Shown here one piece after another: positions 20,876 through 51,489 of a DNA stretch of 64,000 bases (the stretch's first letter is position 1; every line of letters starts with the position of its first letter). Origin of the DNA: Anaerofustis stercorihominis DSM 17244. Lineage in GTDB: Bacteria; Bacillota; Clostridia; Eubacteriales; Anaerofustaceae. Location of the stretch: contig NZ_DS560019.1 of NCBI RefSeq assembly GCF_000154825.1, forward strand, positions 806,001-870,000, given 5' to 3'. Made by a program: the position numbers and the translations under genes. The notes beneath the pieces were generated by a model, which searched no databases, was not told the origin of the DNA, and was given only the letters and a program-made list of their open reading frames with translations.

Positions 20876-20941
20876 TCTATTTTTAGCCGGAGACCCATAA
20901 GGAAGTAAATTATAATTCCGGTAAAACCGGCGTGGCGAAGG

Positions 20942-22633
<1,692 letters not shown>

Positions 22634-22672
22634 CTATATTATAACGCGCCGTTCCTCTTTTTTCAGCATCTT

Positions 22673-22921
22673 TCATTCTGTTTCCTCCAAATTTCCCGCC
22701 ATGATACGGCGCAACTTGTCCAGTACGCTTTCCGCTTCTCCCTCTGCGTAATGGGGAATGACATGATAGACCGTATTCCCTTCAACAGCAATCATTTCTT
22801 CCGTACTGAAATCGAACTCAAAAGCGCCGTCCTTGAAATGTTCTGCCACGCGCTCGGCAATTTCCGGTTTCAGATTTTTGGGAAGTTTGCTTAAATCCAC
22901 AGGCTTACGCAATCCCATCAC
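22673..22921 (-). CDS. Small conserved mobile-element protein, unknown function
   Basis: An 82-residue acidic protein (MMGLRKPVDLSKLPKNLKPE onwards), a type often found between replication and recombinase genes of Clostridiales elements. No catalytic motif is visible. It overlaps the end of the RepA-N-like gene by 17 nt, so the two are co-translated. Confidence 0.65.
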   Translation of the reverse strand: MMGLRKPVDLSKLPKNLKPEIAERVAEHFKDGAFEFDFSTEEMIAVEGNTVYHVIPHYAEGEAESVLDKLRRIMAGNLEETE

Positions 22922-23270
22922 GCTCCTTCCTTGTGGGTAAAATATTCAGTGTAATGACCGCCGGACGGCCAAGTCCCTGCTTTCTGCGGAGAATCAGGCC
23001 ACAGCGTTCTAATTCCTGAAATGCCCTTGTCACCACCTGCCTGCTCCTATGCAATTTCCCTTTTGCTTCTTCCAACGTAAAGTAGAGACGAATCCGCCCG
23101 TCCGGTTCTATGTATCCGTTTTCTCTGGAAATACCCGCCCGGTCTAAGAGCAGGGCATACAGTACTTTTGCGTCGTTGGATAAGTCCATTGGCACCAGGA
23201 AACGGGGAAACGGCAGATAGGGCGGTACAACGCTGTCCTCTTTATAAGGCGTCAAAAAATCATTTTGCAT
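22905..23270 (-). CDS. RepA N-terminal-domain protein (short replication-initiator-like)
   Basis: A 121-residue protein with the RepA_N winged-helix pattern: FPRFLVPMDLSNDAKVLYAL, then LLDRAGISRENGYID-like turns, LYFTLEEAKGKLHRS, and LERCGLILRRKQGLGRP. Full initiators of gut Firmicutes elements are usually two to three times longer and carry a C-terminal domain absent here, so it is either a short variant or a truncation. A TACTCC-type ribosome site (GGAGTA) is present upstream. Confidence 0.75.
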   Translation of the reverse strand: MQNDFLTPYKEDSVVPPYLPFPRFLVPMDLSNDAKVLYALLLDRAGISRENGYIEPDGRIRLYFTLEEAKGKLHRSRQVVTRAFQELERCGLILRRKQGLGRPAVITLNILPTRKERDGIA

Positions 23271-23640
23271 TATGTACTCCTTTCCATCAATCCATCCCTG
23301 ATTGATTGGATTGATATTAACTATCTTGTTATTAACTTCTTCTCTTTAATTTCCGTCTAAATATGGGCTGTCAAAGGTGTCTGGAAATCCGGCGCCGGAA
23401 AGAGAGGGACGGGTCTGTCAAGAGCGTCAGGTTTTCCAGTCTCTGAAAATCCAGTACTGGAGAATCCCATATAGGCGGAAATGGCAAAAGAGGTAAACCG
23501 ACAGAATCGAAAACGACACCTGAATGGGAAAATCCCGTTTAGGTTAAAATCGTCCTGCGGACAGTTAAAAGCAAGTTTTAGAGGGGCGCAGGGGATTTAT
23601 CCCTTATAGCCGTTGACCGCAGCCTGAAACGCCAATAATC
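23271..23640. other. Non-coding gap inside the mobile element
   Basis: I see no gene. It holds short repeats, GATTGATTGGATTGAT near 23300 and several CTGGAAATCC/TTTTCCAG-like words between 23380 and 23470. It could be a replication or transfer origin remnant next to the RepA-N gene, or the scar of lost mobilisation genes. Confidence 0.35.
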
Positions 23641-24072
23641 TCAAGTTTTTTTTGCTTCTAATTGTCCGCACAGGAGCCGCCTTTTCCTGTCGCTGGCTGT
23701 TTTCTGCCGGCGGTGAACCTTCTTTGCACAGAGCTTGCAGTATCTGGCCCGGTTGGAACCGGGGAGGAATGGCTGACCACAGATCACGCAGCGTTTGAAT
23801 TCATCCCGGAACAGAAGCTCCGTTTCCAACGGCTCATCCAGCGGCAGGACAGCACAGCGGAACCATTTGCAGAGAAGCGAATAGGAAATACTTTGAACGC
23901 AGACACATTCCTCTCCATCGTCCAGTGCAATACAGTTGCCGCCGTCATAGTTGCAGCATTCAGGTACCAGCTTACGCATCCGTCGGTACTGCGGATAGTT
24001 CATAATCGGAATCTGATTATGGATAGAAATACCTCCTTCCTGACCGTCAAAAAACATCCCTCTACTATACAT
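23641..24072 (-). CDS. Cysteine-rich VLP-domain protein
   Basis: A 143-residue protein with two Cys clusters: ECCNYDGGNCIALDDGEEC with a following LCKWFRCAVLP, and a zinc-finger-like CVICGQPFLPGSNRARYC-x2-C. This arrangement is the Cys-rich VLP protein found in many conjugative and mobilisable elements of Firmicutes. The function is unknown; metal binding is likely. The C-terminus is strongly basic. Confidence 0.8.
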   Translation of the reverse strand: MYSRGMFFDGQEGGISIHNQIPIMNYPQYRRMRKLVPECCNYDGGNCIALDDGEECVCVQSISYSLLCKWFRCAVLPLDEPLETELLFRDEFKRCVICGQPFLPGSNRARYCKLCAKKVHRRQKTASDRKRRLLCGQLEAKKT

Positions 24073-24255
24073 TTCATTTTTGAGGCAAAATAGGGGGGAC
24101 CTTTTGCAAATTTCACAAAAAATTCATAATTGCCGTGTACAGATAGGCGGCTTCAAAGTCATTCCCTCATATATCCGTTCATTTTTAAGTGGAAAGTTGC
24201 CGTCTATATGAAAATTTGTCAAAAAATCCGCCGCAGTTGTTCCTGCGACGGATTT

Positions 24256-24708
24256 TTATGGAGCAGACAGATATTCAAATTTATAACCAACACCAATAAC
24301 GCTTTTGATGTAGTCCGGAGAATCTGGTGTAGTTCTCAGTTTCCTCCGCAGATTGCTCACATGATTATTGACTGCCTTGCGGGAGTAGTAGGAATAATCT
24401 TCATTCCAGACCAATTGCATAATCAATTCATAAGTAAATACCCGCTTCGGATGTGTGATTAACAAAGCAAGAATGTCAAATTCCTTAGCGGTGAATTCAA
24501 TTACCTGCTCGCCAACACAGACAAGCCGTTGTTCCTGGCAGAAATATAAATCTCCCATGTGAATTTCTGTGAAAGGTTCCTCAATGGCTGCCTGCATCTT
24601 AAAAGTTTCAGGAATGGCGCATGAGCTGTCAGCCGGATTATTCTGTTGCTTTTGAGAATCGAGGAGATAATTTACTAACTCCTGACGCTGACGGGCGCTT
24701 AACAACAT
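24256..24708 (-). CDS. OmpR/PhoB-type winged-helix DNA-binding protein without receiver domain
   Basis: A 150-residue protein. The C-terminal 95 residues form a PhoB-type winged helix (LVCVGEQVIEFTAKEFDILALL, RVFTYELIMQLVW, KAVNNHVSNLRRKLR, IKSVIGVGYKFE). A response-regulator receiver is absent; the N-terminal 50 residues are Gln/Asn-rich. The frame stays open for about 22 codons upstream of the ATG without a start, so a longer ancestral form with a small 5' lesion is possible. It may regulate the adjacent MATE gene or element genes. Confidence 0.75.
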   Translation of the reverse strand: MLLSARQRQELVNYLLDSQKQQNNPADSSCAIPETFKMQAAIEEPFTEIHMGDLYFCQEQRLVCVGEQVIEFTAKEFDILALLITHPKRVFTYELIMQLVWNEDYSYYSRKAVNNHVSNLRRKLRTTPDSPDYIKSVIGVGYKFEYLSAP

Positions 24709-24896
24709 GAGTAACTTTTCTGCAATTATGCCGCCCGGTTCGGATATATCAAATACAGCTAATTTCCCATGTCATCACCCCCTCCATCAGTGTAGGTATT
24801 TGTGCTTTCATTTCGACTGAATAAAGTTGTCATTCGTCACTGTTAGCCTGACTATATAAAAACATGCCCCTTTATAATACAGAAACGGTTTCTTGC

Positions 24897-26228
24897 TTAA
24901 TAAGAATATTTTTTCCTGTAATGGATCAGGCAGATTGCAGATACAACAAACATAATTCCCTCTGCGACTGGTACAGCCAGCCATACCCCAGTTATTCCCC
25001 AAATACGGGGCAATAGCAGGATGCCTCCAGCCAGCAGGCCAAACGTCCGTAAAAAGGAAAGAACCGCAGATACTTTTCCGTTTGACAATGCTGTAAACAT
25101 TGCGGAAGTAAAATTGTTCAAGCCGCAGAATAAAAAGCTGTATGAAAAAATCGCAAAGCCATTCGCCGCAATTTGGTAAACCTCCGAGGTATCATCCGCA
25201 AACAGCCGCACAATGTAAGAGCCGCCAAACATGGAAACCGCAAATATCAATATCGACGCCAACCCGATAAACCGCATACTGATGGATAAAACCTTTTTTT
25301 GCTGGATATGGTTTCTGTTTCCGTAGTTAAACCCGATAATGGGTGCTATCCCCATAGAGTAACCGATATACAGTGTGTTTAACAGGAATTGGGAGTAAAT
25401 GATAATCGTGATTGCCGCAACACCGTTTTCACCTAACAGCTTCATCATCGTTCGGTTGAACAGAAATGTTGTGACGGCAGTTGCCAACTGTCCCACCATT
25501 TCAGAGGATCCGTTGAAACAGCTTTCTCCTATCACAGCCCATTTCAATTTTGGCCTTGTAAAAGACAGCGTTCCTTTGCTCCGCGCAAAATAGACCAGCC
25601 CGGCAACCGTAGGGATCAGATAGCCTAAGCCCGTCCCTAACGCCGCGCCCCGGATGCCCAGACCACAAGGGACAATGAAAATGTAGTCAAAAACGATATT
25701 CGCCACGCCCGCCAGAACAGACAACCCAAAACCAAGGCCGGGTTTTCCAGCAGTCACAAACAGGTTTGAAAACAGCGTTTGCAGGATATTGGCCGGAATG
25801 AATAGAAACAGCACCATGAGATAATCTTTGCAATAGGGAAAGAGCAGATCACTGGCCCCAAGAGCATAAATAATGTTGTCGATCCAGATCGTCCCACCCA
25901 AAAGAATGAGAAACCCAATCACCGCACCTGTGAGTATGAGCAAAGTGAAATCTTCCTTTGCCTCCTGATTTTTACCTGCCCCCATCTTTCGGGAAACAAT
26001 CGCGTTTCCGCCTGTTGCAATCATGGTAGCCAGTCCCACCGTGATGTTGATAATGGGGCACACGATATTGATAGAAGAAAGCGCGTCCGTATTCACAAAC
26101 TGTGCTACAAAGATCGTATCTACAATGGTGTATAATCCCATAAAAATCATCATTACGATGGTGGGAAATGCGAAGCGCAGGAGTGATCCTGCGCTCCATT
26201 TTTGGTCTAAAATGTTATCGTTCATCGT
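24897..26228 (-). CDS. MATE-family efflux transporter
   Basis: About 443 residues and 12 hydrophobic segments in two MATE repeats (LRFAFPTIVMMIFMGLYTIVD at the start, a TAGKPGLGFGLSVLAG-type loop, and GIAPIIGFNYGNRN in the second half). Such pumps export cationic drugs using Na+ or H+. The start at 26228 is set by an AGGAGA site and fits the family N-terminus; an in-frame ATG further upstream lies inside the neighbouring gene. It overlaps the AraC-GNAT gene by 14 nt, so the two are co-transcribed. Confidence 0.92.
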   Translation of the reverse strand, partial: TMNDNILDQKWSAGSLLRFAFPTIVMMIFMGLYTIVDTIFVAQFVNTDALSSINIVCPIINITVGLATMIATGGNAIVSRKMGAGKNQEAKEDFTLLILTGAVIGFLILLGGTIWIDNIIYALGASDLLFPYCKDYLMVLFLFIPANILQTLFSNLFVTAGKPGLGFGLSVLAGVANIVFDYIFIVPCGLGIRGAALGTGLGYLIPTVAGLVYFARSKGTLSFTRPKLKWAVIGESCFNGSSEMVGQLATAVTTFLFNRTMMKLLGENGVAAITIIIYSQFLLNTLYIGYSMGIAPIIGFNYGNRNHIQQKKVLSISMRFIGLASILIFAVSMFGGSYIVRLFADDTSEVYQIAANGFAIFSYSFLFCGLNNFTSAMFTALSNGKVSAVLSFLRTFGLLAGGILLLPRIWGITGVWLAVPVAEGIMFVVSAICLIHYRKKYSY

Positions 26229-27069
26229 CGCCTTTCTCCTGTTTTGGTGGTAGAATGAGCCGCTGGGTGGGGTAGCCAAATTCAGTGAGAAGCTCCGACT
26301 CGGCAAAGCCCAAACGTTTATAGTCCTCTCTCTGGCCTGTATCGGCTTTATCTCCCTCGCGGAAAGTAGTAATACTGATTTCACGGCCTGCAAATATATT
26401 GCACATCATAAAGTCAAGGAAAGCCTTTGCCACTCCATAATGCCGGTATTGCGGATGTACTGCCAGAAAGTCGATACTCCCTGTCTGATAAGAAAATGCG
26501 GCTGCTCCAATTATAGTTGGGCCATCCCGCATAATAAGAGCCTGGCGCTGACCGACATATTGCCTGACTTGTTCCAAATGGGAGATTTCATCAAGGCAGG
26601 GAAAACCGTCAATGACAAGGGTAATAAAATTCATCCAGTCGGGAATATCTTCCAGTGTAGCATAGTAAATCTCTTGCATGATCGTATCAGGAACAGTTGG
26701 GTTTTTGTTCAATGTAAATTCCAGTTGCAAAGGATAAAAGACTTCGTTCTGCCTATATTCCAGCGGCGTTTGCTTATACATGGATTTGAAGATGGAAGTA
26801 AACGCCTGCTGGCTTTCATAGCCAGCAATCAGCGCAATTTCGATAATCGGCTTTTCTGAAAACACCAGCAGCTTTGCCGCCTCGGTCAGTTGCCTGCGCT
26901 GGATATAGTCATGAAGTGTGATCCCGACTGTATCTGTAAACATTCGGTGCAGATGATACTTGGAATAGCAAACTGCATTTGCAACTGTGTCCAAATCCAA
27001 TTTTTCATTGAGATGCGCTTCAATGTAAGAAATCACTGCCGCTATATTCTCAACTTTTTGACTGTTCAT
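26215..27069 (-). CDS. AraC-type regulator fused to a GNAT acetyltransferase-like domain
   Basis: About 284 residues. The N-terminal double HTH (residues about 8-105: LDTVANAVCYSKYHLHRMF and IIEIALIAGYESQQAFTSIFK) is AraC/XylS type, with the DNA-binding domain first. The C-terminal half has the GNAT acetyl-CoA loop region (SIDFLAVHPQYRHYGVAKAFLDF). The GNAT part may sense a drug or modify it. The start at 27069 has AGGAGG 9 nt upstream. It is first in an operon with the MATE pump, so a drug-responsive activator of the pump is a fair inference. Confidence 0.85.
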   Translation of the reverse strand: MNSQKVENIAAVISYIEAHLNEKLDLDTVANAVCYSKYHLHRMFTDTVGITLHDYIQRRQLTEAAKLLVFSEKPIIEIALIAGYESQQAFTSIFKSMYKQTPLEYRQNEVFYPLQLEFTLNKNPTVPDTIMQEIYYATLEDIPDWMNFITLVIDGFPCLDEISHLEQVRQYVGQRQALIMRDGPTIIGAAAFSYQTGSIDFLAVHPQYRHYGVAKAFLDFMMCNIFAGREISITTFREGDKADTGQREDYKRLGFAESELLTEFGYPTQRLILPPKQEKGDDER

Positions 27070-27390
27070 GGTTTCCCTCCTTTCTGTTTTCATTATAACA
27101 AAACAGATAATGCCGCTTTTCATTATTCTTGCGGTCTTTTCATATATCATACACCCCAGAAACATCTACTCTGGCGCAAGTGTCAATTATCCGTTTGTCT
27201 CCCTGCACCTGCCGCTAGAGCAGCATATTATCTTTGAACAAAGTGTTCACTCTATCGGTATCTTTCAGCTATAGCAGATTAGGTTAACTATATTTGTACT
27301 TTTATCTCATTGCAACTTTATATGTTACTTGCTGCATCCTTATTGTACGTCTTTCGTTCAGTCTATCAATGCTGTTCATGGTTGAATAAT
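27070..27390. other. Non-coding gap upstream of the AraC-GNAT gene
   Basis: About 320 nt without a convincing gene. It should contain the promoter of the AraC-GNAT/MATE unit (AT-rich stretch near 27075-27125), but I could not fix a clear -35/-10 pair. Base composition is intermediate between the element and the host. Confidence 0.35.
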
Positions 27391-27452
27391 CAAAAAAACT
27401 ATCAGAGGATTCAAAGTTAATGTTCCATTAAAATCTTGAAAATCCTCTGATA
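27391..27452 (-). terminator. Intrinsic terminator of the CHAT gene
   Basis: A perfect 12-bp stem, TATCAGAGGATT (27400-27411) with AATCCTCTGATA (27441-27452). On the minus strand T7 follows (27392-27398). Confidence 0.85.
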
Positions 27453-27494
27453 ATTCTTAAAAACTATTTTATCTGATTTCGTGTATGAGATAAC

Positions 27495-28550
27495 TTAAAC
27501 ATCGGGACGGACAAGTATCATATCATTAAGATCCACATCATCACGAGCGTAAATTTGGGGGATATTTTCACCAGGAATTCCCTCTAACAGCAATTCAGCT
27601 ATTGCCTGATTAAAAGATACCTGCAATGAACGTCCGAATCCTATCGAAGAGTAGAGTTGGGCCGCAAATGTACAAGCAGTATCATCCCGAATTGATTCAG
27701 ACATTCCAATCGCGGCTTCTATATGTTCAACAACGCTGACTGCCTGCGATTCAGAAAAGCATGCATTAAAAACCACTAATCGTATTGTATCGGAGGCAGT
27801 TGACATGGCCATGGTAATTGCCTCCTTTGTAACCATCTTTGTACTGCCATCTGGATTTAACAATACAAGTTCCCCTGACATGCTTCCATGGCCACTGAAA
27901 TGGACTATTGTTGGATTTGTCTCATTTATTGCCTGCAATATATCTGATGAACGAGTAGCCCAGCGACTTTCAAAATGAATAGAGTCACGATACTCTGAAA
28001 GTCGTATTTTTTCTTGGATTGATCGTGCTTCTTCATCAAGAGACAACTTTTGAGTATCTTTTGGATTAGCAGCCAGAAATAAAACTGTGATTTTTTCCGG
28101 TATTGCTTTTAGGCGTTCAATTTCCATCTGCATATTTGTTTGGACAGTTCCGTATTCGTTTAATGATTGCTCAAAAGCGGCCGCTTGGCGCTCCATTTCT
28201 CGTTGACGTTTCTTCTCTGCTTCAAGATTCTTTTTATTAACTTTAGCTTCTTCATTTCTAAAATTTTTTTCTGCAGTTGCTAATTCCTTCTCCTTTTGGG
28301 CAATCTTTTTCTGTAAGTCCCCACACTTTTTTTGAATGTCCGAAATAGATTTATTTGCACGTTGAATTTCTTTATATTTAGTATTGATGGTAGACTGGCT
28401 TTTGGTACGGTCAATCATACTTTGGGCAGAAATGATTTTCTTTTGCAATGGAGATATTTTTGCCTGTTCTTTAGCCAAATCTTGATTCAGTTTGGCCAGT
28501 TCCTCCCGCTTTCTAATCATGGTATTTCTATATGTATCAAGCTGCGACAT
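27495..28550 (-). CDS. Coiled-coil CHAT-domain (caspase-like) cysteine protease
   Basis: A 351-residue protein. Residues about 5-150 are a long, charged, heptad-like coiled coil rich in Lys, Glu and Gln. Residues about 153-345 form a CHAT domain: it opens with TVLFLAANPKDTQKLSLDEE and has the catalytic His221 in IVHFSGHGS and Cys264 in VFNACFSES. CHAT proteases are effectors in several bacterial conflict systems, usually fused to or beside sensor domains; here the only other part is the coiled coil. It is a single-gene unit with an AAGGAGGG ribosome site and its own terminator, at the right end of the mobile element. Substrate and trigger are unknown. Confidence 0.88.
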   Translation of the reverse strand: MSQLDTYRNTMIRKREELAKLNQDLAKEQAKISPLQKKIISAQSMIDRTKSQSTINTKYKEIQRANKSISDIQKKCGDLQKKIAQKEKELATAEKNFRNEEAKVNKKNLEAEKKRQREMERQAAAFEQSLNEYGTVQTNMQMEIERLKAIPEKITVLFLAANPKDTQKLSLDEEARSIQEKIRLSEYRDSIHFESRWATRSSDILQAINETNPTIVHFSGHGSMSGELVLLNPDGSTKMVTKEAITMAMSTASDTIRLVVFNACFSESQAVSVVEHIEAAIGMSESIRDDTACTFAAQLYSSIGFGRSLQVSFNQAIAELLLEGIPGENIPQIYARDDVDLNDMILVRPDV

Positions 28551-29010
28551 ATTTCACCCTCCTTCTTTTTAATTATACAATTTAGCCGTAACGAATTCAA
28601 TAAAAACAAACATCGGCTACTTATTGTTTTCAACATAACGTTTTGTTAACAGGTAAAAGTTATCAGGAATTCAAAATCCCTTGATTTTTCATATAGCTGG
28701 CATAAATCAGGAAAAACAAAAAAGTTATCAGGAACCCTTTTGCCGTAATCCCTTATGAAATATGGATGCTTTCAACAGGTTCCTGATAACTTAGAATTCC
28801 TGATAACCGGTAGTATAAGGAATTCACGATACAAATGGCAAGCAATGCAATCTTACGTAAGATTGCGTATTTAGCAGGATTTCCGTTCCCAGAATTCCTG
28901 CTAAATGCTTGTTGGTGACATGTCCCCAAACCCCTGAGATCATCACCTTCGGTGATGGCTGCGCGTTCCGTTGAAACACTGAAAAACTCATATTTGATAT
29001 TTTAAAAACA
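28551..29010. repeat. Non-coding region with nested inverted repeats at the right end of the element
   Basis: GTTATCAGGAATTC (28659-28672) is perfectly complemented by 28794-28807. Nested inside, GTTATCAGGAACC (28724-28736) is complemented by 28778-28790. Further right are a 20-bp perfect palindrome, GCAATCTTACGTAAGATTGC (28847-28866), a hairpin with arms ATTTAGCAGGA (28869-28879) and TCCTGCTAAAT (28896-28906), and CATCACC-TTC-GGTGATG near 28945. The only frame noted is a 27-codon one starting at 28835 with weak support. This could be a recombinase or transfer site, or regulatory RNA. Confidence 0.7.
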
Positions 29011-29062
29011 AAAAAATGCCATGCAATCGGCGAACCTTTTGCATAGCATTTTTTGTTTTTTC
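29008..29062. terminator. Bidirectional intrinsic terminator near the right end of the element
   Basis: Nested arms AAAAAATGC (29011-29019) with GCATTTTTT (29046-29054), and ATGCAA (29021-29026) with TTGCAT (29039-29044). Confidence 0.8.
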
Positions 29063-29137
29063 CGTTTACCTGGCATAAGTCATAAGTTTTGTAATGTTTC
29101 CTTATGGGATACTACCATTACATAGGGTCTTTTTTTA

Positions 29138-32100
29138 TTATTTACAAAGTAAATCTCCCAGTAGAGAATATAGTTTATTTAAATCTATAGGTTTCGAGAT
29201 ATGTCCGTTCATACCGCTTTCTATTGATTTTTTCATATCCTCATCAAATGCGTTTGCAGACATTGCAACGATAGGTACGGTGATTGCATCGGCTTTATCA
29301 AGGTTTCTTATGGTCTTTGTTGCCGTCAACCCGTCCATTATCGGCATTCTGATATCCATTAAAATCAAATCATAATATCCGACTGCAGACTCTTTAAATT
29401 TATCTACCGCTATCTGTCCGTTTTCCGCAACTTCTACTATAAACTTATTCATTTCCAGTATAGTTTTGGCAATTTCAATATTTAAGTCATTATCTTCAAC
29501 CAGTAAAACCTTTTTGCCGGAAAAGTCATAATCAATATTATTATTTTCTTTCTTTTTAAGTTTATCTTCAGAGGATTTTTCAAGTATCAATGTAAATTTA
29601 AATGTACTTCCTTTACCTAAATCACTCTCCAGTTCTATATTGCTTCCCATTAATTTTACAAGGTTATTACATATTGCAAGCCCCAATCCGGTTCCTCCAT
29701 AATGAATGGAAGTATCATCTTCAGCCTGTTCGAATGCATGGAAAACTCTTTCTTTATTTTCACTGCTTATTCCGATACCATCATCTTTTACTATAAATGT
29801 AACTTTGCTTTGTTTGTCATTATAATCTTCTTCACGTACACAAAGCAATATATTTCCTTTTGACTGTGTAAATTTTATAGCATTCCCAAGAAGATTTATA
29901 AGAATTTGATTTATTCTCATGTAATCTCCGTATAGAACATCATCGTTAACATTGGCTTTTACATTAAAGTTAAGCTCTTTATCTTCTGCTTGAGGTCGTA
30001 TCAAGGTTTCTACTTCATCGATAAGATTAGTTAAACTAAAATTGGAAGGTGATAATTTCATCTTACCGCTTTCGATTCTGGACATATCTAATATGTCATT
30101 GATTATGGAAAGAAGGTATTCTGATGAGGTGCTAATTTTTTCAAGGTATTCTTTGGTGCTGTTTTTTAGCCCGTTTTCTTCCATTGCAATATTGGTCATA
30201 CCGATTATAGCATTCATAGGTGTTCTTATTTCATGTGACATCCTTGATAAGAAATCACTCTTTGCTTTACTTGCAGAGTCTGAACGAGATTTTCCGATGT
30301 TTGTAGCAATTATCTTAACTATTTCATATAAGCTGCTGTTATCTTTATCTTCTATATTTTTTGTTTCATCCTTTAAATTGAAGGATATGCTTCCTATATA
30401 GTTTTCATCGTTTATTAATGGATAGCAAACTCCGCTTGTATGTTCTTCTATTCTAAAGAAATCTTTTTCGAGAGGCATTAATTCATTATTTACTTCATAT
30501 TTAATAGGTTTAGTCATTAATTTACTGCTTAGTTTAAGAAAATCTTCTTTTGAATAATGTCTTATTTCTTCTGATATTTTATGATTATCGTTATGCCATT
30601 GGAAAGGTATATAACTGCTATAAAAATCTTGTTCGGCAAATGTCATTATTATGCTGTCTAAATTAAAGTACTTTCCGACTTTCATTAAAAGGACCGGCAT
30701 TATCTTTCTTAAGTCGTTTGTTTTATCAAACATATTGAATATAAGTGATGCAATACTTATATCATTTGCATAATTAACACCAAGTATATCTCCGAATGTA
30801 TTAGTTAAATCTATATTATTATTTTTTTCTGTTTCGGGAAGAGCGGCATATGTTTCTACTTCGCCCATTTTTTTATCTTTAGCAAATTTTAATGCTTTCA
30901 TTGCATTATTTATTGCATCTTCTACCGAAGTTTCTTCAGTATTTTCTATATAATATATCCCGGTGCTGCATCCTGTTTGAACATTTAAGTCTTTAAAGGT
31001 ACTATTAAATTTATCGGTAAACTCTCTTGCTATATTTAAAGCTTCATCGGCATTTTTGTCTTGAGCCCAAAGTAAAAATTCATCTCCTCCGCACCTTACG
31101 GCTATATCATTATTGGAAATTACCGAACTTAAAATATGACCGCTTTCTTCAAGTATTACATCTCCGATAACGATACCCAGATTATTATTGATGTTTTCAA
31201 AATAATCCAAATCGAATATTAAAATCGTTCCATGTTCTAAAATACTAAATTCATTTTCTATCAGTTTGATTCCTTCATTCCAATTGAATAATCCGGTTAG
31301 AGGATCTCTTCTTTGTTTTTCTATTTCTTTTAACTCTTGTTTCTTTTCATCATCAATATCTCTCATGCTCCCGATGATTTTGATCAGTTCCTCGTTGTTA
31401 TTATAAATAGCTTTTCCTCTTAACTCTATCCAAATAAAATCTTCTAGATTTTTACCTAGTTTGCCTCTGAAATCAGTATGAATATAACCTAAATCATCAA
31501 TTATATACTTATCAATTATGTATTTATCTTCATCATAGATATAATCTTTATTCCTTAAAGCTTCTTTGCAGTTTTCAATTGTTACCGAAGGTTCCAAACT
31601 GCTGTTTTCGTCATCTTTATTTTTAAATTCGTAATAAACATATACAATATCTTTTAGAGCGTCATATTCGAATATCGTTTGAGTGCTGCTTTCAAGTGCC
31701 GCTTGATATCTGCTTTTTTCTTCTATAATTAGATTTTCCGATTCTTTTTGTTTATGAGTCAAGTCGCTTATAACGTTATAAAGTTCATCTATTTCTTCTA
31801 TATTTGAAATAGGAAATTCATTGAGTTTATTTTCATCGCTTGTTTTAATAGTTTGAGCCAATCTAATGATAGGTTTAGTAATTGAAGTAGATGTCAGATA
31901 GATTGCACCAAGACCAATTATCAGACAAAGTATAATGACTATGGTTACGGTTCTCATCAAATTATTCGATATTCCAAATAATTGATTATCGGTGCTTATA
32001 GCCATCAATGCCCACTGATCTGAGGAGAAAGGAGTATTGGTATTGTATAGATTCAAATCTAATAATGTTCCGTAAACTTCCGAATCATGCAGTTTTATAT

Positions 32101-33079
32101 CTTTAAGTTTATAAAAGTTATCTGAGGTATTCTCTTTTTTTAAAGAAAATGAATTGTTGATGTTTTGTACTTGAGAAGCACTCGCGCCGGATGCTGTCAA
32201 AACTTTGCAATTATTGTTTTCGTCTTTCAATACCAATAAATAACCGCTTTGATGAGAATTCTTTAAATCGAGCTCTCTTGAGGGTAATATAGAATGAAGA
32301 TAAGAAATAGATATATCCACACCCGCAACTCCATATACCTGTCCTTTATATATAAGAGGAACGGAATATGTGATCATTTGATAACTTTTATTTGCCTCTT
32401 TCTCACCTTCTAAATAGAATGGTTTAGACCAATAACCCAAATTTTGATATCCAAGTTCAGGATTTTCTTTTGCTGCATTAAAAGGCTTATAAAAGAATTC
32501 ATTGCTGAACGTTTCATCATTGCTGCTTATATTAAAAGATGATTCCCATGGGATATCAAAAGGTATTTTTAATTTATGAGAAAGTGTTGAGCTTCCTCTT
32601 ACCATGGTTATATCTGAATAATCCACAGGATCGTTTTCCGGATCGGCATCTCTTAAATAAATCCCCGGTACGCTTTTCTTGTTTCTCGTATCTGCAAGGA
32701 TTATAAAAGAACCATTAACCGTGTTTTTTCTTAAGTTTGATATGAGGGTATTTGAAGACGAATCAAATAATTCGTTCTGCAAAGATTTATCTTTTAAGAA
32801 TGCTTTTAAATTTGTATGGTTATTTTTAAGTATTTTATCTAAATTGGAATTTACATCTTTGATTTCTTCCTTTAGATTCGACCATTGCTGAACCATATTA
32901 TTTTCTAATATGATTTTCCTATTCTCTGTTGTTTGACTCAATATCTGTACGGAATTTTGATTTAAAATACTAGGTGTTCCGCTTATGTATAGAGCAATAT
33001 ATAAAGCAAAAACAAGTATGAAAATAAGAATTATCAATGGAAATAGTATTTGATTAAATATTGATCTTTTCTTCTTCAT
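29138..33079 (-). CDS. Hybrid sensor histidine kinase with PAS, GGDEF, HisKA, HATPase and receiver domains
   Basis: A 1313-residue membrane sensor. Order: membrane helix (about 10-33), extracellular dCache-like sensor (about 40-365), helix (about 377-396), HAMP-like linker, PAS-like region (about 455-585), GGDEF domain with intact motif at 664-668 and the DLDYFENINNNLG strand (623-635), a GAF-like region (about 760-920), HisKA with His949 in MSHEIRTPMN, HATPase_c (GIGIS, GGTGLGL), and a receiver with Asp1242 and Lys1296. The RxxD inhibitory site before GGDEF is absent (SNND). It may combine c-di-GMP synthesis with phosphorelay. It lies 29 nt behind a solute-binding lipoprotein gene. Confidence 0.92.
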   Translation of the reverse strand: MKKKRSIFNQILFPLIILIFILVFALYIALYISGTPSILNQNSVQILSQTTENRKIILENNMVQQWSNLKEEIKDVNSNLDKILKNNHTNLKAFLKDKSLQNELFDSSSNTLISNLRKNTVNGSFIILADTRNKKSVPGIYLRDADPENDPVDYSDITMVRGSSTLSHKLKIPFDIPWESSFNISSNDETFSNEFFYKPFNAAKENPELGYQNLGYWSKPFYLEGEKEANKSYQMITYSVPLIYKGQVYGVAGVDISISYLHSILPSRELDLKNSHQSGYLLVLKDENNNCKVLTASGASASQVQNINNSFSLKKENTSDNFYKLKDIKLHDSEVYGTLLDLNLYNTNTPFSSDQWALMAISTDNQLFGISNNLMRTVTIVIILCLIIGLGAIYLTSTSITKPIIRLAQTIKTSDENKLNEFPISNIEEIDELYNVISDLTHKQKESENLIIEEKSRYQAALESSTQTIFEYDALKDIVYVYYEFKNKDDENSSLEPSVTIENCKEALRNKDYIYDEDKYIIDKYIIDDLGYIHTDFRGKLGKNLEDFIWIELRGKAIYNNNEELIKIIGSMRDIDDEKKQELKEIEKQRRDPLTGLFNWNEGIKLIENEFSILEHGTILIFDLDYFENINNNLGIVIGDVILEESGHILSSVISNNDIAVRCGGDEFLLWAQDKNADEALNIAREFTDKFNSTFKDLNVQTGCSTGIYYIENTEETSVEDAINNAMKALKFAKDKKMGEVETYAALPETEKNNNIDLTNTFGDILGVNYANDISIASLIFNMFDKTNDLRKIMPVLLMKVGKYFNLDSIIMTFAEQDFYSSYIPFQWHNDNHKISEEIRHYSKEDFLKLSSKLMTKPIKYEVNNELMPLEKDFFRIEEHTSGVCYPLINDENYIGSISFNLKDETKNIEDKDNSSLYEIVKIIATNIGKSRSDSASKAKSDFLSRMSHEIRTPMNAIIGMTNIAMEENGLKNSTKEYLEKISTSSEYLLSIINDILDMSRIESGKMKLSPSNFSLTNLIDEVETLIRPQAEDKELNFNVKANVNDDVLYGDYMRINQILINLLGNAIKFTQSKGNILLCVREEDYNDKQSKVTFIVKDDGIGISSENKERVFHAFEQAEDDTSIHYGGTGLGLAICNNLVKLMGSNIELESDLGKGSTFKFTLILEKSSEDKLKKKENNNIDYDFSGKKVLLVEDNDLNIEIAKTILEMNKFIVEVAENGQIAVDKFKESAVGYYDLILMDIRMPIMDGLTATKTIRNLDKADAITVPIVAMSANAFDEDMKKSIESGMNGHISKPIDLNKLYSLLGDLLCK

Positions 33080-33108: not shown

Positions 33109-34572
33109 TTATTTTACGCTATCCTTTAATGCCTTATTGAATGATTCATACCATTTTTCGAAATTTTTGTCAGAAGTATATTTTTTTGTCGCTTCTTCTA
33201 AGCTCTTACCGTTTTTTAGTGCTTTTTCAACTTCTTTTCTGTCATTGATAGCTAAGTCATATAAGTTATATTCCAATACTTTTCTTGCATTTCTTCCGCC
33301 GTCGAATGCTTTGTTTGTATAGAGGGTATTATTTTTTAGTGTATCATATGCTACGTCCATGGTCTTTTTTACTTTGTCATTTAGATTTATGTTGTTTTCC
33401 TTGATAACTTTATTAAATGAATCGATGTTGTTAGCATCTTTTTTAACCGGAAGATATCCGCTGTCTCCGCAGAAGTTGATATTTCTTTCTTCTTCCGTGA
33501 ACCATTTTAAGAAAACAACCGATGCGTATTCTTCCTGTTCCGTACTTTTTGTTACTACCATTCCCGCACCTTGCTGTACTGCATAGTCTTTACCATCTTT
33601 GAATTTAGGGTCTTCTAGAACTATCGTTTCGATTTTGCTTGATTTTCCGTTATTATCTACTTTATCAGGGAAATAGTTAGCTGATGTAGTAGATCCGGTT
33701 AAAGACGCTATTTCACCTATAGCCACATCATCGGAACGGAATTTTCCGTAAGATGAGAAATAGCCTTTAACATATGGAACATAATAAAATTCTCATATTT
33801 TTTTCATGTTTTCTTTATTTATATTTAATGATACTTTTTGATTTTCAACTTTAAAAAGTTCATCTCCGTTTTGCATAGAACCTATTATAAACAGATTTGC
33901 CATCGCATCTCTTCCGTAAAAAGCTTTTCCGTCATTTTTAACATTTGGAGTCAGCGAATCGATCCATTCGTAATATTCTTTTGCAATATTAACTAAGCCT
34001 TCTTTAGTTTTAAGTTCTTCAAGGCTTGCTCCCGTAGCTTTTGAAAATTTATCCCAAGCTGTTTTGTTTAACATAAATATTTCTGTGCTTTTTGCTACAG
34101 GGAATATTTTAAGCTCGTCTGCATTGCTGCTTATCCTGCCTTCTTCAATATATGAATCTACATATGAATCAATATCATCTTTAGACATATATTTATTTAA
34201 ATCCACCAAGTATCCTTTTTTTTCTATTTCATAAGCTGTATCGGCATATGAAGCAAAAATATTGGGAATTTCTTTACTTCCAACTTTTTTATTTATTGAT
34301 GCCATAACACTGTCTTCGAGCTGTGTAACATCGCCCTGGTTATGTCCTTCAACAAAAATCCCCTCTTCCAATCCAACAGTTTCGTTGAATTCTTTTATCA
34401 TGTTGTCAAATGCAACTTTTTGAGCTCCGTTATAATAATGCCAAACGGTTATTGTTACGGGATTGCTCGGATCGAGTTTAACTCCTGCAGGATTATCGTT
34501 ACTTTTACATCCCGTCAAAGCTCCAAAAATAAGAAGCATAGAAACTACTAGTGCCGTTATTCTTTTTTTCAT
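33109..34572 (-). pseudogene. Extracellular solute-binding lipoprotein gene interrupted by an in-frame TGA
   Basis: The frame encodes 487 residues with one TGA at codon 260 (33793-33795). Both halves are in the same frame and join smoothly (NKENMKKI, stop, EFYYVPYVKGYF). A lipoprotein signal ends in ALTGC, with Cys22 as the lipid-attachment site. The rest is a carbohydrate-type ABC solute-binding protein (VTITVWHYYNGAQKVAFD; GMVVTKSTEQEEYASVVFLKWF). No permease or ATPase genes are adjacent; instead a dCache hybrid kinase follows, so the protein may deliver ligand to the sensor. TGG (Trp) would be the natural codon at the break. AAAGGGG precedes the start. Confidence 0.8.
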
Positions 34573-40698: not shown

Positions 40699-42279
40699 CT
40701 ATCTGTTTTCCTTTGCTTCTTCTCTGTTCATCATACATCCAACCGCTATCTGTACCACTGCTATAACTGCCATCACTACAGTGAACATATCAGCTATTAC
40801 CATATTTCCGCTTAAGTCTTGTGTCAAGAAGAATACCGCTACACTTACTATCGCTAAAACGATGCCTGCTGCTGTCATGCTCATCTTGCCTTCTCTTCTC
40901 ATTCCCTTAAGTCCCATTACCATTGCTGATATTATACTTAGTACTGCTAACAATATATTTACTAATGCAAAGCTTCCTGCGTTTGTTTGTTCAGCATTCG
41001 CAAGCGGTGTTTCGTTATCATTTATTGTTGTTGCTTCCCCTGCGTTCGCTCCGCTTGCTAACGGTGTTTGATTATCATTTATTGCTACGTTATTGTTTAC
41101 TGCCGTATTATTATTTGCTGCCGCTGCCGGTTGTGCGTTTCCTGTGTTTGCTGCTGATGTTCCAACCGATGCTCCATCATTATTTCTTTCTACAGTTGTT
41201 GTCTTTACTGTTGTAGTCGTTGTAGTTACTACAACATCTTCGCCGTTTGTATTATTTTCATCGTCGGGTGTTATGAATTCTTCATCATCAGGTGCAGGTG
41301 TATTATTTTCATCTTTTGGTTCTTCAGGTACTACAGGTTCAGCCGCTTTCTTTGCTTCGAATACTGCCTTGTATGTTTCGTCGCTTCTTACTCTGTGTCC
41401 TTCTTCCGGAAGTCCTTCTTCCCAGTGTGAAAATTCATATCCTTCTTCCGCTACGGGTGTCGGAACTTTTACTACGTTCTTGAATTCGCTTCCTTTATTG
41501 ATGTCTTCAAATGCAGTTTGTCCTTCTAATTTCCCGTTTTCTCCGGCTTAGAAGTTTACTGAGTATTTTATCGTATAATAAGGTGTAACCAATATCCTGA
41601 TATTTTGTCCTTCATCGAATGTTGTATATCCGAAACCTTTTCCTTCGCCTTCCGTACTGTAGTTTACTTTTGCTTCAAAAGTACCGTCATATCTTTCGCT
41701 TCTTACAGATACGATAGTTCCTGCAGGGAATGTAACTTTCTTTCCGTTTAATGTTCCTACCGCGTCATTCAATAATGTCATGGTTACATCAAACATATAT
41801 TTGTTTGTTTCTCTGTCTTTGTAAAACGCTCCGAAACCTGTTATCCTGTTCTTTTCTTCGGTGTATGTCTTTGCGTCCGCAGGTCCTTTGTTGAAGCTGT
41901 ATACATCGAAGTATTCTTCGTCCATCACATAAGTGATAGTACAAGGTTCGCTGGTTTTTTTTGCTTCTTTTACGCTCTTTGTACCTTTAACTGCTTTTAC
42001 TTCTTTTTTTACTTCTTCTTTAGAAGCTTCTTTTTCTTTGTTCTTTGCTTCTTCTTTTACTTCTGTCTTTTCTTCTTCCTTAGCTTCTTCTGCTTCGGCT
42101 TTTTCTTCAGCAGCTTCTTCTTTTACTTCTTTAGCTGTCTTATCCATAACTTCTTCACTTACTTTAGATGTTTCTTCTATTATTTCTTCCGCTGCGAATA
42201 TAGGTCCCGCACACTGCAGTACAAGTAACACGCTTATCATTATCGCTACTAAACTTTTCATCCCTTTTCTCTTTTTCAT
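40699..42279 (-). pseudogene. Surface protein gene interrupted by an in-frame TAA
   Basis: The frame encodes 526 residues with one TAA at codon 244 (41548-41550). The sequence before (YTIKYSVNF) and after (AGENGKLEGQTAFEDINKGS) together make an ordinary beta-repeat of InlB-B/MucBP-like surface proteins. Order: signal peptide ending near FAAEE, a Glu/Lys/Ala-rich coiled region (about 35-110), a beta-rich region, the stop, the rest of the repeat, a Thr/Asn/Ala-rich linker with two TPLA copies, and three C-terminal hydrophobic segments ending in KENR. No LPXTG is present. With the stop, the product would be a secreted 243-residue fragment. Confidence 0.78.
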
Positions 42280-42615
42280 ATCTACACCTCAACGTTTTTC
42301 TTTCTCTTTATGTTACCAGTATATGACACTACAGTTACTCACCGGTTACATTTTCATCTCTAAGTTACTTTTTTGGGAAATTCTTTTTTATATAACTAAA
42401 TTATATAACTTTATGGTAACCTTTTCAACCTTTTATTTGTTTTTGTTCACATTATTTTAACTTTGCTATGATGTTTTTTAATTATATGATGCTTAAGTAT
42501 TAAATATTTATATTGTTTATAAGTGATTAATTGATAAAATACAGTGATCAACACAGCAAAATAATCTTTAAAAGTATTAAATATTTCTTTTTTATTTAAT
42601 ATGATCCATAAAATA
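42280..42615. promoter_or_regulatory. Leader and promoter region of the broken surface-protein gene
   Basis: On the minus strand, TTGAAA (42423-42428), a 17-nt spacer, TATAAT (42400-42405), giving a leader of about 110 nt. The leader holds several GTTAC/GTAAC words (near 42312, 42334, 42345, 42364). The rest up to the spoIIE terminator is AT-rich with no gene seen. Confidence 0.6.
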
Positions 42616-42642
42616 AAAAAGAACTCTTAAGAGAGTTCTTTT
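42616..42642 (-). terminator. Intrinsic terminator of spoIIE
   Basis: AGAACTCT pairs with AGAGTTCT around TAAG, with A and T tracts on both sides. Confidence 0.8.
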
Positions 42643-45010
42643 ATCCTGCTATTTCTTCTCTGACTTTAACTACCAATATACTTACGTCATCTTTTAATTT
42701 TCCGAGACTCCTTGCGTATGCTTCATTGAATAATTCGTCTGCTATTTTTTGAGGGTTTCTGTATTCCATATTTTTAATTTTTTCTTTTATTAATTCTCTG
42801 TCATCTGAGAATGCTTCCAAGAAACCGTCACTAATCAGATATAAATAGTCGTTATTTTTTAATTTTAATTTTTCAGTGGCAAGATTTATATTTTCTATGA
42901 TACCTATTGGAAGTGCTTCTCCCGTCAAGTCCATTATTTCCCCGTCTCTTTTTAAATAACTTTCAAGTGCACCGGCTTTTATGAATTCAGCTTCCGCATT
43001 ATATAAATCAAACAGGACTACATCCAAAGTTGTGAAAATCTCATCTTCTTCAAGAGAAAGGATTGAATTTATCATATTTACACTGTTTTCTTCACCGCTT
43101 CCGCAGCTGAGCATTTCTTCTAGTAAATTTAATACTCTTTCGCTCTGTTTGTTTGCTTTTTCTCCGCTGCCCATACCGTCTGCGAGAGCAATTAAATGTG
43201 TGTTAGTTGGGAGGACTATATTTGAATAGTTATCACCGCATTCTTCTCTGTTTTCTTTTTTTTCTCTTCTGACTCCTACACTTAAAGAATATGGCATTCT
43301 TTCGGTAAATGTGTATTCAAAAGCTTCAAAAGCTTGCTCTGTGTAAGAGTTATAATCGTACATTATATTTTTACCGAGGATTTCGCTTAACAGTAAAGGT
43401 ACGGTAATCCTATATTCTTCGCTTGATAATCTTTTTCCTGTCTTTAAATATGTTTTTATTTTTCCCTGGAAATCTTCAAGTATAACCGTTTCTTTTACGA
43501 TTATCCCCATTGAGAATAATCCTTCCTTTACTTTCTTTTCATCGCTTGAAAAATAATTGAGTCCTTTTTTGATATTGTTATAAATGTTATCAAGGGTTTT
43601 ATTGACGCTGTTGAATTCAATTTTCATAAGACTTTTAAATTTATTTAATTTATTATTATAGTCCTTTTTAAGCTTTAAATTATCACAGAGGTATGATGTA
43701 CTTTTAAACATAAAAAAGTTGTATTTACATTTATTTATAAAACTTTTAGGTAAATCTTTTTTAGATGTTATTTTTCCGTTATACGTATCAAGGATTACTT
43801 GTGAGAAATTTACAAAAGTATCTTCGCCTTCTTCGTTCCAGCACTTATGAAAGTCTTCACAGTTTGTACATATATCGGCGGTAAGGACTTTGCATATACT
43901 TTTGGTTACGTTTGTGTTTTCGTTTTTATTATTAAGGGTAATGTTATAGCTTACCTCGTTGATCATATTCTTTTTATTTTCTATTTCCTCTTTTATGGTC
44001 TTCTTTATTGCATTATTGAATATATTTCCATGGTCTATGGTTTCGGTTGAGCTTAAAAATGCCATTACCCGATCGTTAAATAATGCAGTGAAAATCAAAA
44101 AAGCAGCGGAAGCAATGAGGACTTCCTTCAGTCCTACGGTAAACATTATACTTTTATTTATGTAGCACGATAATGTCAGCGCCGTAAATCCAAAAATGAG
44201 AGTACTTGTTATTTTGGATATATTCTTAGTCATAGAAGCAAATAAGCATGCTACCGTGAATATAAGTATTATATCGGTATCAAATCCTCCCCTTAAAGTG
44301 AGGAGGATACTGCTTACAAGTGAAAAACTTAAACAGAGGCTTAAAGAGAAGTACGTAGCTACGAATAACAAAAGGAAGGTAGTAAAAATCATAGCTATCG
44401 ATAAGGTAAATATATTTATATCTGCCGTACCAAGTAAAAATATAGAAAATACAACTCCAAGGCTTAAGGCTTCAAAGGATGAGAAGTCTTTTTTAAGGTC
44501 AATATTTTCAATCAGATTATAGGCAGTATCGAAGATAAAGAAAACAATTACCAAACTAAGAGCTTCAAGTGCACAGTACATATTATTTATTGGAGGATTT
44601 TTAGCTATGTAATTCGTAAGTAAGCCGCTAAATAATGTGATGACACTTGCAAGACATGCATATGTAGCTTTATTACTGTTTATAATATAATTTCGGCTAA
44701 GTGCGAACATCAATAATATTGAAAAAATAAGTCTTATCCCTGATGATATCCCAAGAGTAAAAGATGTTATTATCACCATAAGAACTAAGGGGATGTTTGA
44801 AAGTTCTTCTTTGTAGATGATAAATGCGCTTATACCGAAAACAAAAGGTAAAGTGTAGGAAAAGAATATACTAAAGTTACCGAGAATAGACAAAATCGTT
44901 ATGACTATGTTTTTATATAGGGTAAAGTTGTTTTTTTTAGTCTCTTTTTCTTTTTTTATGTTTTTATTATATGTATTGTTTATTTTAATAATTCCTTCTC
45001 TACTTATCAT
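42641..45010 (-). CDS. spoIIE: Stage II sporulation protein E (serine phosphatase)
   Basis: About 789 residues. The N-terminal half has around ten membrane segments (about 30-310). A central regulatory region carries a Cys set (DICTNCEDFHKC). A C-terminal PP2C-type phosphatase has ALADGMGSGEKANKQS and ISDGFLEAF as metal-binding motifs. SpoIIE dephosphorylates SpoIIAA to release sigma-F in the forespore and acts at the polar septum. The start at 45010 is chosen for GGAGG just upstream, rather than an in-frame ATG at 45055. Strong evidence that the host sporulates. Confidence 0.95.
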   Translation of the reverse strand: MISREGIIKINNTYNKNIKKEKETKKNNFTLYKNIVITILSILGNFSIFFSYTLPFVFGISAFIIYKEELSNIPLVLMVIITSFTLGISSGIRLIFSILLMFALSRNYIINSNKATYACLASVITLFSGLLTNYIAKNPPINNMYCALEALSLVIVFFIFDTAYNLIENIDLKKDFSSFEALSLGVVFSIFLLGTADINIFTLSIAMIFTTFLLLFVATYFSLSLCLSFSLVSSILLTLRGGFDTDIILIFTVACLFASMTKNISKITSTLIFGFTALTLSCYINKSIMFTVGLKEVLIASAAFLIFTALFNDRVMAFLSSTETIDHGNIFNNAIKKTIKEEIENKKNMINEVSYNITLNNKNENTNVTKSICKVLTADICTNCEDFHKCWNEEGEDTFVNFSQVILDTYNGKITSKKDLPKSFINKCKYNFFMFKSTSYLCDNLKLKKDYNNKLNKFKSLMKIEFNSVNKTLDNIYNNIKKGLNYFSSDEKKVKEGLFSMGIIVKETVILEDFQGKIKTYLKTGKRLSSEEYRITVPLLLSEILGKNIMYDYNSYTEQAFEAFEYTFTERMPYSLSVGVRREKKENREECGDNYSNIVLPTNTHLIALADGMGSGEKANKQSERVLNLLEEMLSCGSGEENSVNMINSILSLEEDEIFTTLDVVLFDLYNAEAEFIKAGALESYLKRDGEIMDLTGEALPIGIIENINLATEKLKLKNNDYLYLISDGFLEAFSDDRELIKEKIKNMEYRNPQKIADELFNEAYARSLGKLKDDVSILVVKVREEIAG

Positions 45011-45173
45011 TTTAAGCCTCCTATAAGTTATAAAAAAATTATAAAAATAATCCATGGGGAAATTTGATGAAATCTAGCAGAATTCTAAAAAAAATAAAAA
45101 AGCATTCAAATATTTGTATTTAAATAGCTATTATTATATACTTACATTGAAATAAATAATTGAAGGTACTTTT

Positions 45174-47237
45174 ATGATAGTTAATGGTAATGAAATAGAA
45201 ATCTTAGCACCTGCAGGAAGTTTTGAAAATTTAAAAACTGCGATTTTATCCGGAGCCGACAGTGTTTACTTTGGTCTTTCTAATTTTAATGCAAGGAGGA
45301 ATGCCGAAAATTTCTCTAGTTTTGAGGATATAAAAGAAGCAGTAGATTTTTGTCACTTGAGAGGTAAAAAGGCTCATGTTACACTCAATACTTTGGTTTA
45401 CGACAATGAAATACAGGATTTGGTAAAAGAGATTGAAGTTATTAATAAAGCCGGGTTCGACGCTATCATAGTTCAGGATCTAGGGGTAATAAATATTTTA
45501 AAACAGATTTCAAAGGTTCCTATCCATGCTTCCACTCAGCTAAGTGTACATAATGTAAGTGATGCAAAGAAACTTAAAGACATGGGATTTGACAGAGTAG
45601 TTCTTTCAAGAGAGCTTTCTTTAAAAGAAATAAAAAGAATTATGGATGAAGTTGATGTTGAAGTAGAAATCTTTATTCATGGTGCGCTTTGCATGAGTGT
45701 TTCCGGGCAATGTTATTTTTCTTCTGCGTTGGGAGAGCGAAGCGGGAACAGGGGGTTATGTGCCGGTGTATGCAGACTCCCTTTCTATGTTAGAGAAAAG
45801 GGAAGATATGATCTATCTCTTAAAGATGTTTGCTATATCGATTATATAGAAGAGTTTGCAAATATGGGCATCGCTTCTTTAAAGATTGAAGGCAGGATGA
45901 AGAGTAAGGAATATGTGAAGAGCGTTGTCAGTGAAATAAGAAATAAAATAGAATTTGGTAAATATAATAAAAAGTTGCTTAAAGATGTATTTTCAAGAAG
46001 CGGTTTTACCGACGGTTATATAACAGGTAAAAGAAATAATATGTTTGGTATTAGGAGTGAAGAAGATAAATCTTATACCAAAGCTGCAATTGAGGAGATA
46101 AAAAGTAAAGATATTTATGAAGATAAAGTTAAAGTAGATATAAAGTATGACTTTACTTTGGGGAAGAATTCTTATCTGGAAATGATCGACGAAGATAATA
46201 ATATTGTTTCTGTTAAAGGTGATATAATTGAAGAAGCAAAAAATAAACCTACCGCAAAAGAAAATATTGAAAAAAATTTATTAAAATTAGGCTCGACTGT
46301 TTATGAGATAAATGATATGGAAGGTAAGGCGGATAATAATATATTTGTTCCTATTTCAAGCATAAATGAACTGAGAAGGAATGCTACGGATAAGCTTGAT
46401 AAAATAAGGATTAGCAAATTTCCTGTTTATGATATAGGAAAATTAATAAAACCAAAAGATAAGAGCAGACCTATTGGTGGTAAAAATATTGCCGTTATCA
46501 ACGATATAAATACACTTAATGAATTTATTCTTGATTATTTTGATGAAACGTACATTCCTTTATTCGAGCTTAATAAATTAAATAAAGATTTGATTGTTAA
46601 GTATAAAGGTAAACTGGGCGTAGAAATTCCCAGGGTATACTTTGATGAGGAAGCAAATATAAATAAAAATCTTTTAAAGGCAAAAGAGTTGGGAATTAAA
46701 AAAGGACTTGCTCATACGATAGGTAAGATTGTCCTGTTGGATAAACTTGACTTTGAAATAATGACGGGATTTGGAACCAATATTACCAATTCTTATTCAG
46801 TGGATTTACTTGAAAAAGAAATACATAATTTAAAAAATGTAACCCTTTCTTTTGAAAATACTATAAATAATATAAATAAAATCAAGTCAAATACTGAGTT
46901 ATCGATTATAGTATATGGTTATCTTCCTTTGATGACTGCAAGGAATTGTCCTGTAAAAGAAGAGATAGGATGTAAAAATTGTAATAAAAAGCTGTCTCTG
47001 AACGACAGGATGGGCAAGAAGTTTAGAGTAAAATGTAACGGACAAACAAGTGAACTTTATAATACTTATCCTTTATGTGTATTTGACAGGCTTAATAAAC
47101 TCGATAGTGATATAAATAAAATATTTATGTTTAATGATGAAAATAAAAATGATATAAAAAATATAATAAAACACTATGAAAACAGTGAATTACTAAATGA
47201 TAGTACAAGAGGGTGCTATTTCAGAAAGTTATTATAG
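45174..47237 (+). CDS. U32-family peptidase (DUF3656-containing)
   Basis: A 687-residue U32 protein. The N-terminal half has EILAPAGSFENLKTAILSGADSVYFG in pieces, EIFIHGALCMSVSGQCYFSS, and the Cys-rich signature RGLCAGVCRLPF, whose Cys residues bind iron-sulfur in RNA-hydroxylating relatives. The C-terminal half is DUF3656-like with a final Cys group (EEIGCKNCNKK). Relatives are collagenase-annotated, but some (RlhA, TrhP) hydroxylate rRNA or tRNA, so RNA modification is a real alternative. It starts the U32-PHP pair. Confidence 0.88.
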   Translation: MIVNGNEIEILAPAGSFENLKTAILSGADSVYFGLSNFNARRNAENFSSFEDIKEAVDFCHLRGKKAHVTLNTLVYDNEIQDLVKEIEVINKAGFDAIIVQDLGVINILKQISKVPIHASTQLSVHNVSDAKKLKDMGFDRVVLSRELSLKEIKRIMDEVDVEVEIFIHGALCMSVSGQCYFSSALGERSGNRGLCAGVCRLPFYVREKGRYDLSLKDVCYIDYIEEFANMGIASLKIEGRMKSKEYVKSVVSEIRNKIEFGKYNKKLLKDVFSRSGFTDGYITGKRNNMFGIRSEEDKSYTKAAIEEIKSKDIYEDKVKVDIKYDFTLGKNSYLEMIDEDNNIVSVKGDIIEEAKNKPTAKENIEKNLLKLGSTVYEINDMEGKADNNIFVPISSINELRRNATDKLDKIRISKFPVYDIGKLIKPKDKSRPIGGKNIAVINDINTLNEFILDYFDETYIPLFELNKLNKDLIVKYKGKLGVEIPRVYFDEEANINKNLLKAKELGIKKGLAHTIGKIVLLDKLDFEIMTGFGTNITNSYSVDLLEKEIHNLKNVTLSFENTINNINKIKSNTELSIIVYGYLPLMTARNCPVKEEIGCKNCNKKLSLNDRMGKKFRVKCNGQTSELYNTYPLCVFDRLNKLDSDINKIFMFNDENKNDIKNIIKHYENSELLNDSTRGCYFRKLL

Positions 47238-47245
47238 GAGGAAAA

Positions 47246-48103: not shown

Positions 48104-48194
48104 ATATAAATAATGATTAATTACTCTTTATTTTTAGTATTAATTTTAGTATAATTAATTAGCTAAGGGGAAAAAGAATAAAAGGATGAAAAAT

Positions 48195-49457: not shown

Positions 49458-49460
49458 CCT

Positions 49461-49487
49461 TTTCCCCTTATTTTATAAGGGGATTTT
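49461..49487 (+). terminator. Intrinsic terminator of murA
   Basis: TCCCCTTAT pairs with ATAAGGGGA, then T5. Confidence 0.85.
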
Positions 49488-49541
49488 TAATATTAAAATA
49501 TATATTTAATTATAGAACGCATAGAATTAATAGGAGAATAA

Positions 49542-50330: not shown

Positions 50331-50339
50331 GAGGAAAAA

Positions 50340-51458: not shown

Positions 51459-51461
51459 TCA

Positions 51462-51489
51462 AGGAGCAGGATAATCTGCTCTTTTTTTA
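51462..51489 (+). terminator. Intrinsic terminator of walJ-htrA
   Basis: GAGCAG (51464-51469) pairs with CTGCTC (51476-51481), then T7. Confidence 0.85.

Follow-up and report, generated by a model that had tools for sequence, protein, structure and literature searches.

A probable recent nonsense mutation in a solute-binding lipoprotein gene adjoining an intact membrane sensor gene in Anaerofustis stercorihominis DSM 17244

The interrupted lipoprotein gene and its neighbour

The window analysed here is a 64,000-nucleotide stretch of the Anaerofustis stercorihominis DSM 17244 genome, which is available as a 2.28-Mb draft assembly of five contigs rated 99.2% complete. Its minus strand carries a solute-binding lipoprotein gene interrupted by one stop codon and, directly downstream, the uninterrupted gene of a large membrane sensor:

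33109-34572, minus strand: SBP_bac_8 solute-binding lipoprotein gene, interrupted (487 residues; 488 codons including the final TAA)
33793-33795, minus strand: in-frame TGA, codon 260 of the lipoprotein gene, read from the sequence
33793-34572, minus strand: proximal open frame of 259 aa, the predicted truncated product, with a signal peptide (by eye) and the first part of the binding domain
33109-33792, minus strand: distal part, 3' of the stop, with a dN/dS of 0.025 against the closest relative
29138-33079, minus strand: intact membrane sensor of 1313 aa, with a weak PDC-type sensor match, GGDEF, HisKA, HATPase and REC (Pfam)

A sequence-only reading of this DNA had reported a single in-frame TGA at 33793-33795 within an unchanged frame, and this codon is indeed present on the minus strand as the only internal stop of the frame running from 34572 to 33109 (residue 260), with the same frame on either side. 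Read across the TGA, the gene encodes one SBP_bac_8 domain (Pfam, E = 4.4e-32), the match to which is split by the premature stop after 259 of 487 residues, the proximal frame covering positions 2-154 of the 279 in the profile. The frames at 33793-34572 (E = 6.1e-15) and 33109-33726 (E = 2.9e-13) each match SBP_bac_8 on their own, in keeping with the earlier description of a normal solute-binding protein on both sides of the stop, and annotation may break the gene at 33109-34572 into two short ORFs. A lipobox-like Cys at residue 22 is invariant across the 11 sequences of our alignment A1, and the nearest structures in a PDB profile search were binders of sugars and glycerol-3-phosphate. Structure prediction gave low-confidence models for both the lipoprotein and the sensor part (mean pLDDT of 48.8 and 39.4, respectively).

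Two in-frame start codons lie within 100 codons after the stop. By eye, no Shine-Dalgarno-like motif precedes GTG 283, where the mechanical ORF 33109-33726 starts, while ATG 338 is preceded at a distance of 5 nt by AAGGTG, which does resemble a Shine-Dalgarno sequence. Restart at ATG 338 could yield a cytoplasmic C-terminal fragment; as this product would have no signal peptide, it should not substitute for the lipoprotein.

Codon 260 and other stops among relatives

The closest relative found was A. stercorihominis DSM 28733 (G002, hereafter the sister), whose blocks aligned to the window mostly at 88-92% DNA identity. Its lipoprotein gene is uninterrupted, shares 95% identity over 487 residues and encodes Trp (TGG) at the codon matching the window TGA. 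We aligned 28 relative loci to the window copy (29 rows, as G002 occurs twice and was counted once; the count omits L028 and L029, which are weak matches, L001, which is the window's own copy, and matches without an assigned locus) and found Trp (TGG) at the codon 260 position in 12 loci, Phe in 15 and Leu in one, with a stop at this position in none of the 28. The comparison with relatives had been proposed as a check by the sequence-only reading, and its choice of Trp (TGG) as the natural residue is confirmed by both the sister codon and the 12 loci. At the adjacent residue 261 (33790-33792), the window has Glu, and the closest relative and seven further sequences compared there have Asp.

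An order-wide search recovered 29 lipoprotein gene matches at E <= 1e-40 from 28 of 67 genomes, and two of the 29 contain in-frame stops: the window TGA and a TAA in G025. The G025 gene (L069:9689-11128) has its TAA at a near-N-terminal Tyr shared by all 11 A1 sequences; the closely similar G050 has an open lipoprotein gene, and the GGDEF gene downstream in G025 is also open. The TGA and the TAA are separate events at different places, and two stops in 29 loci are too few for any claim of enrichment or of favoured loss of the lipoprotein. No further copies of the lipoprotein gene were found in viral contigs.

Selection on the distal part

Measured against G002, dN/dS was 0.059 before the stop and 0.025 after it, with values of 0.052 for the downstream kinase and 0.039 for the upstream P-type ATPase. 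The relaxed selection after the stop that characterizes a nonsense pseudogene was thus not detected in the distal part. Had this part evolved neutrally along the whole branch, approximately 191 amino-acid changes would be expected, compared with 9.5 counted for both branches together, indicating that selection preserved it through almost the entire period since divergence from G002 and that the inactivation, if real, is very recent. Such strong purifying selection is compatible with a very young stop; it fits an error or a stop that is read through as well, and does not separate these three.

Mutation or assembly error

The window and its 200 kb flanks were compared with a 162-kb contig of DSM 28733, with ORFs matched at >70% identity. 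Among the 125 matched sister ORFs (46,979 aa), the window genome has two clean mid-gene stops, at 33793-33795 in the lipoprotein gene and at a second site:

41548-41550, minus strand: in-frame TAA, residue 244 of the surface-protein gene 40699-42279; open in the sister, which has Glu (GAA)

The surface protein has an N-terminal signal-like stretch, and its sister counterpart matches an NCBIfam FILTED-domain surface protein (42.3 bits, cut-off 40). Other flagged stops in the window genome lie at residue 4 of 299 and residue 265 of 266; two ORFs look frameshift-split, one of them with stops at residues 8 and 26. When overlapping ORFs were retained, a further set of flags appeared on the antisense strand. 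In the reverse comparison of 126 ORFs, the sister had a stop in a 137-aa ORF, a frameshift-like break in an ORF of 588 aa and, at an alignment gap, a further stop. Two parts of the window (1-1164 and 40699-55162) match the sister contig G002:C33 in the direction opposite to the rest, and gene order is therefore rearranged between the two assemblies.

The main rival to a real mutation is a sequencing or consensus error, in which case the living strain would be intact and the assembly wrong at one base; we consider this unlikely, yet probable enough to be weighed seriously. An error would suit a single site in a draft assembly of five contigs, with one genome of the species and a distal part that is otherwise fully gene-like. 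Against this, about 4-6% of random substitutions create a stop (as counted in three genes), such that an error-only account of two clean stops in 125 ORFs needs some tens of substitution errors in ~160 kb, a high number for a consensus sequence. The many errors needed favour a real mutation, although for a single site an error is still possible. The second clean stop among the 125 ORFs also indicates that mutations (or errors) of this type occur outside the lipoprotein gene as well.

Decoding of UGA

The genome encodes RF2 (prfB) in an open frame (515.6 bits). The 40 tRNA matches over the cut-off, all typed by ARAGORN, include a single tRNA-Trp, which has a CCA anticodon, and none with a TCA anticodon. 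This tRNA-Trp has a 5-bp anticodon stem, with G at position 24 and A at position 9 (positions hand-counted), and therefore lacks the 4-bp anticodon stem, G24A and A9C with which UGA reading is associated in the available text of PMC13092985. TGA terminates 15 of the 211 non-overlapping mechanical ORFs >150 aa in 264 kb, a count that includes the truncated lipoprotein frame. With respect to selenocysteine, the only match of the tRNA-Sec model over its cut-off (47.8 against 47 bits) was tRNA-Ser(TGA), and the best SelB match scored 193.6 bits, below the 242.25 cut-off, and spanned positions 1-262 of 581. The 50 nt beginning with the stop showed no notable fold (z = -0.52, with 49 of 200 shuffles folding as well). 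The genome thus presents neither the features of selenoprotein synthesis (tRNA-Sec and SelB, with a SECIS after the UGA) nor those of a code in which UGA is Trp (a UGA-reading tRNA-Trp, with RF2 lost or changed). With RF2 intact, and with no UGA-reading tRNA and no Sec machinery found, UGA is an ordinary stop here, at which background leakiness is possible.

Readthrough, by which the near-cognate tRNA-Trp would insert Trp at a low or regulated frequency, so that full-length lipoprotein would be produced in some amount governed by the stop, is improbable on this evidence. Trp is the residue of the closest relatives, purifying selection is seen on both sides of the stop, and many in-frame stops in bacterial genes have been argued, in the available text of Belinky et al. 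2021 (PMC7918605), to keep dN/dS <1. However, the same text describes in-frame stops as usually short-lived, the stop at codon 260 occurs in one genome only and is shared by 0 of 28 relative loci, the tRNA-Trp has none of the three features named above, and no notable fold accompanies the stop. Selenocysteine insertion or other recoding at this UGA, or a genome-wide reassignment of UGA to Trp, is already contradicted and can be practically discounted, as it has nothing in its favour beyond the TGA codon itself and is opposed by the lack of any detected tRNA-Sec, SelB or notable fold just after the codon, the intact RF2, the 40 tRNAs without a TCA anticodon and the ORFs that end in TGA, with a missed recoding gene being possible but unlikely in a genome rated so nearly complete.

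A probable recent nonsense mutation

Overall, the stop is best read as a recent nonsense mutation in an otherwise normal solute-binding lipoprotein gene, to which we assign a probability of roughly 0.72. The sequence-only reading had left a fresh pseudogene, an error and readthrough side by side; of these, the fresh mutation is the best supported, and no machinery was found for readthrough or recoding. A point mutation that arose recently in the strain or species would have turned a Trp codon into TGA, ending translation after 259 of 487 residues and removing approximately the latter half of the binding domain, and the truncated lipoprotein is predicted to fail to bind its ligand. We infer that the lipoprotein has lost its function; since the downstream sensor gene is intact, the cell would probably be left with a sensor kinase/diguanylate cyclase that lacks its ligand-binding partner. 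On its own, one young nonsense mutation is ordinary in kind. It is mildly informative, as the window gene may represent a naturally occurring knock-out of the binding protein in a conserved pair of binding protein and sensor.

The binding-protein and sensor gene pair

The sensor at 29138-33079 has an intact GGDEF motif, and its DSM 28733 counterpart is open and 92% identical. The combination of a PDC-type match with GGDEF, HisKA, HATPase and REC within one protein is an unusual architecture. The end of the kinase gene adjoins the edge of a segment of ~8.2 kb (20885-29131) that is unmatched at the corresponding position in DSM 28733 and carries a serine recombinase (20942-22582), a MatE protein, an AraC-type HTH and GNAT protein and a CHAT-domain protein; given this content and its absence from the sister, the segment is probably an integrated mobile element.

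We surveyed the neighbours of the lipoprotein gene at 17 relative loci in 16 genomes, a selection from the lipoprotein matches, and in all 17 a co-directional ORF of 540-1313 aa directly follows. Pfam scans of 16 of these neighbours assigned GGDEF and EAL to nine, GGDEF alone to four, HisKA-HATPase-REC to one and a LuxR-type HTH to two, whose adjacent binding proteins are the most distant ones. The remaining neighbour, the 1313-aa sister protein, is 92% identical to the window fusion of GGDEF and hybrid kinase, bringing the kinase-type total to two of 17. In 12 of the 17 loci the neighbour shows similarity to the window kinase's N-terminal sensory part, and none was detected at E <= 1e-5 in L073-L075, L077 and L078. 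No ABC permease was detected in the ten ORFs around the window pair (two of which are the halves of 40699-42279), or in ten neighbour ORFs scanned across five relative loci. G001, of the same genus, has no lipoprotein and no match to the N-terminal part of the sensor, and the pair is therefore dispensable.

Adjacency in every locus examined, combined with differing outputs, suggests that the pair acts as a unit whose output can be swapped. The lipoprotein had earlier been proposed as the ligand partner of the downstream kinase, and it is the gene order that argues for this role: the two proteins are probably partners and may interact directly. A more speculative reading holds that a leaky UGA keeps the lipoprotein dose low and so tunes this swappable-output SBP/c-di-GMP sensor pair of the order, with stops hitting the binding protein in at least two lineages and the sensor kept open; we regard it as very doubtful.

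Comparison with known systems

As a probable recent nonsense mutation, the window stop resembles the short-lived in-frame stops described in the available text of PMC7918605, given one stop, an intact homologue in the closest genome and a distal part under purifying selection; set against those stops, and with one genome of the species compared, nothing distinctive was seen here. The conserved pair of binding-protein and sensor genes was not recognised in the literature searched, among the matches listed. Binding proteins are already known to control membrane c-di-GMP enzymes and kinases, as described in the text available for BctC-BctE (PMC9602780) and NspS-MbaA (PMC8967002, PMC9993111). In the available part of PMC8846402, SBP_bac_3 is the only family of the PBP clan studied in c-di-GMP networks, a statement that concerns domains within enzymes rather than separate proteins.

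In NspS-MbaA, a binding protein controls a membrane c-di-GMP enzyme. Like that system, as the available text presents it, the window pair places a binding-protein gene beside the gene of a membrane GGDEF protein (with EAL too in most of the relatives examined here), and no ABC permease was found among the scanned neighbours of the window and relative pairs. Unlike NspS-MbaA, the window binding protein is a lipoprotein of the SBP_bac_8 type, nearest by PDB profile to binders of sugars and glycerol-3-phosphate, and the sensor fuses GGDEF to a hybrid histidine kinase. The pair also resembles the SBP-coupled histidine kinases, both AgtS (PMC11113362), for which a binding-protein gene adjoins a sensor kinase gene, and BctC-BctE (PMC9602780), in which the binding protein BctC controls the sensor kinase BctE. 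In contrast to the available descriptions of AgtS and BctC-BctE, the partner role of the window lipoprotein is predicted, and among the relatives of the window pair the output varies between species.
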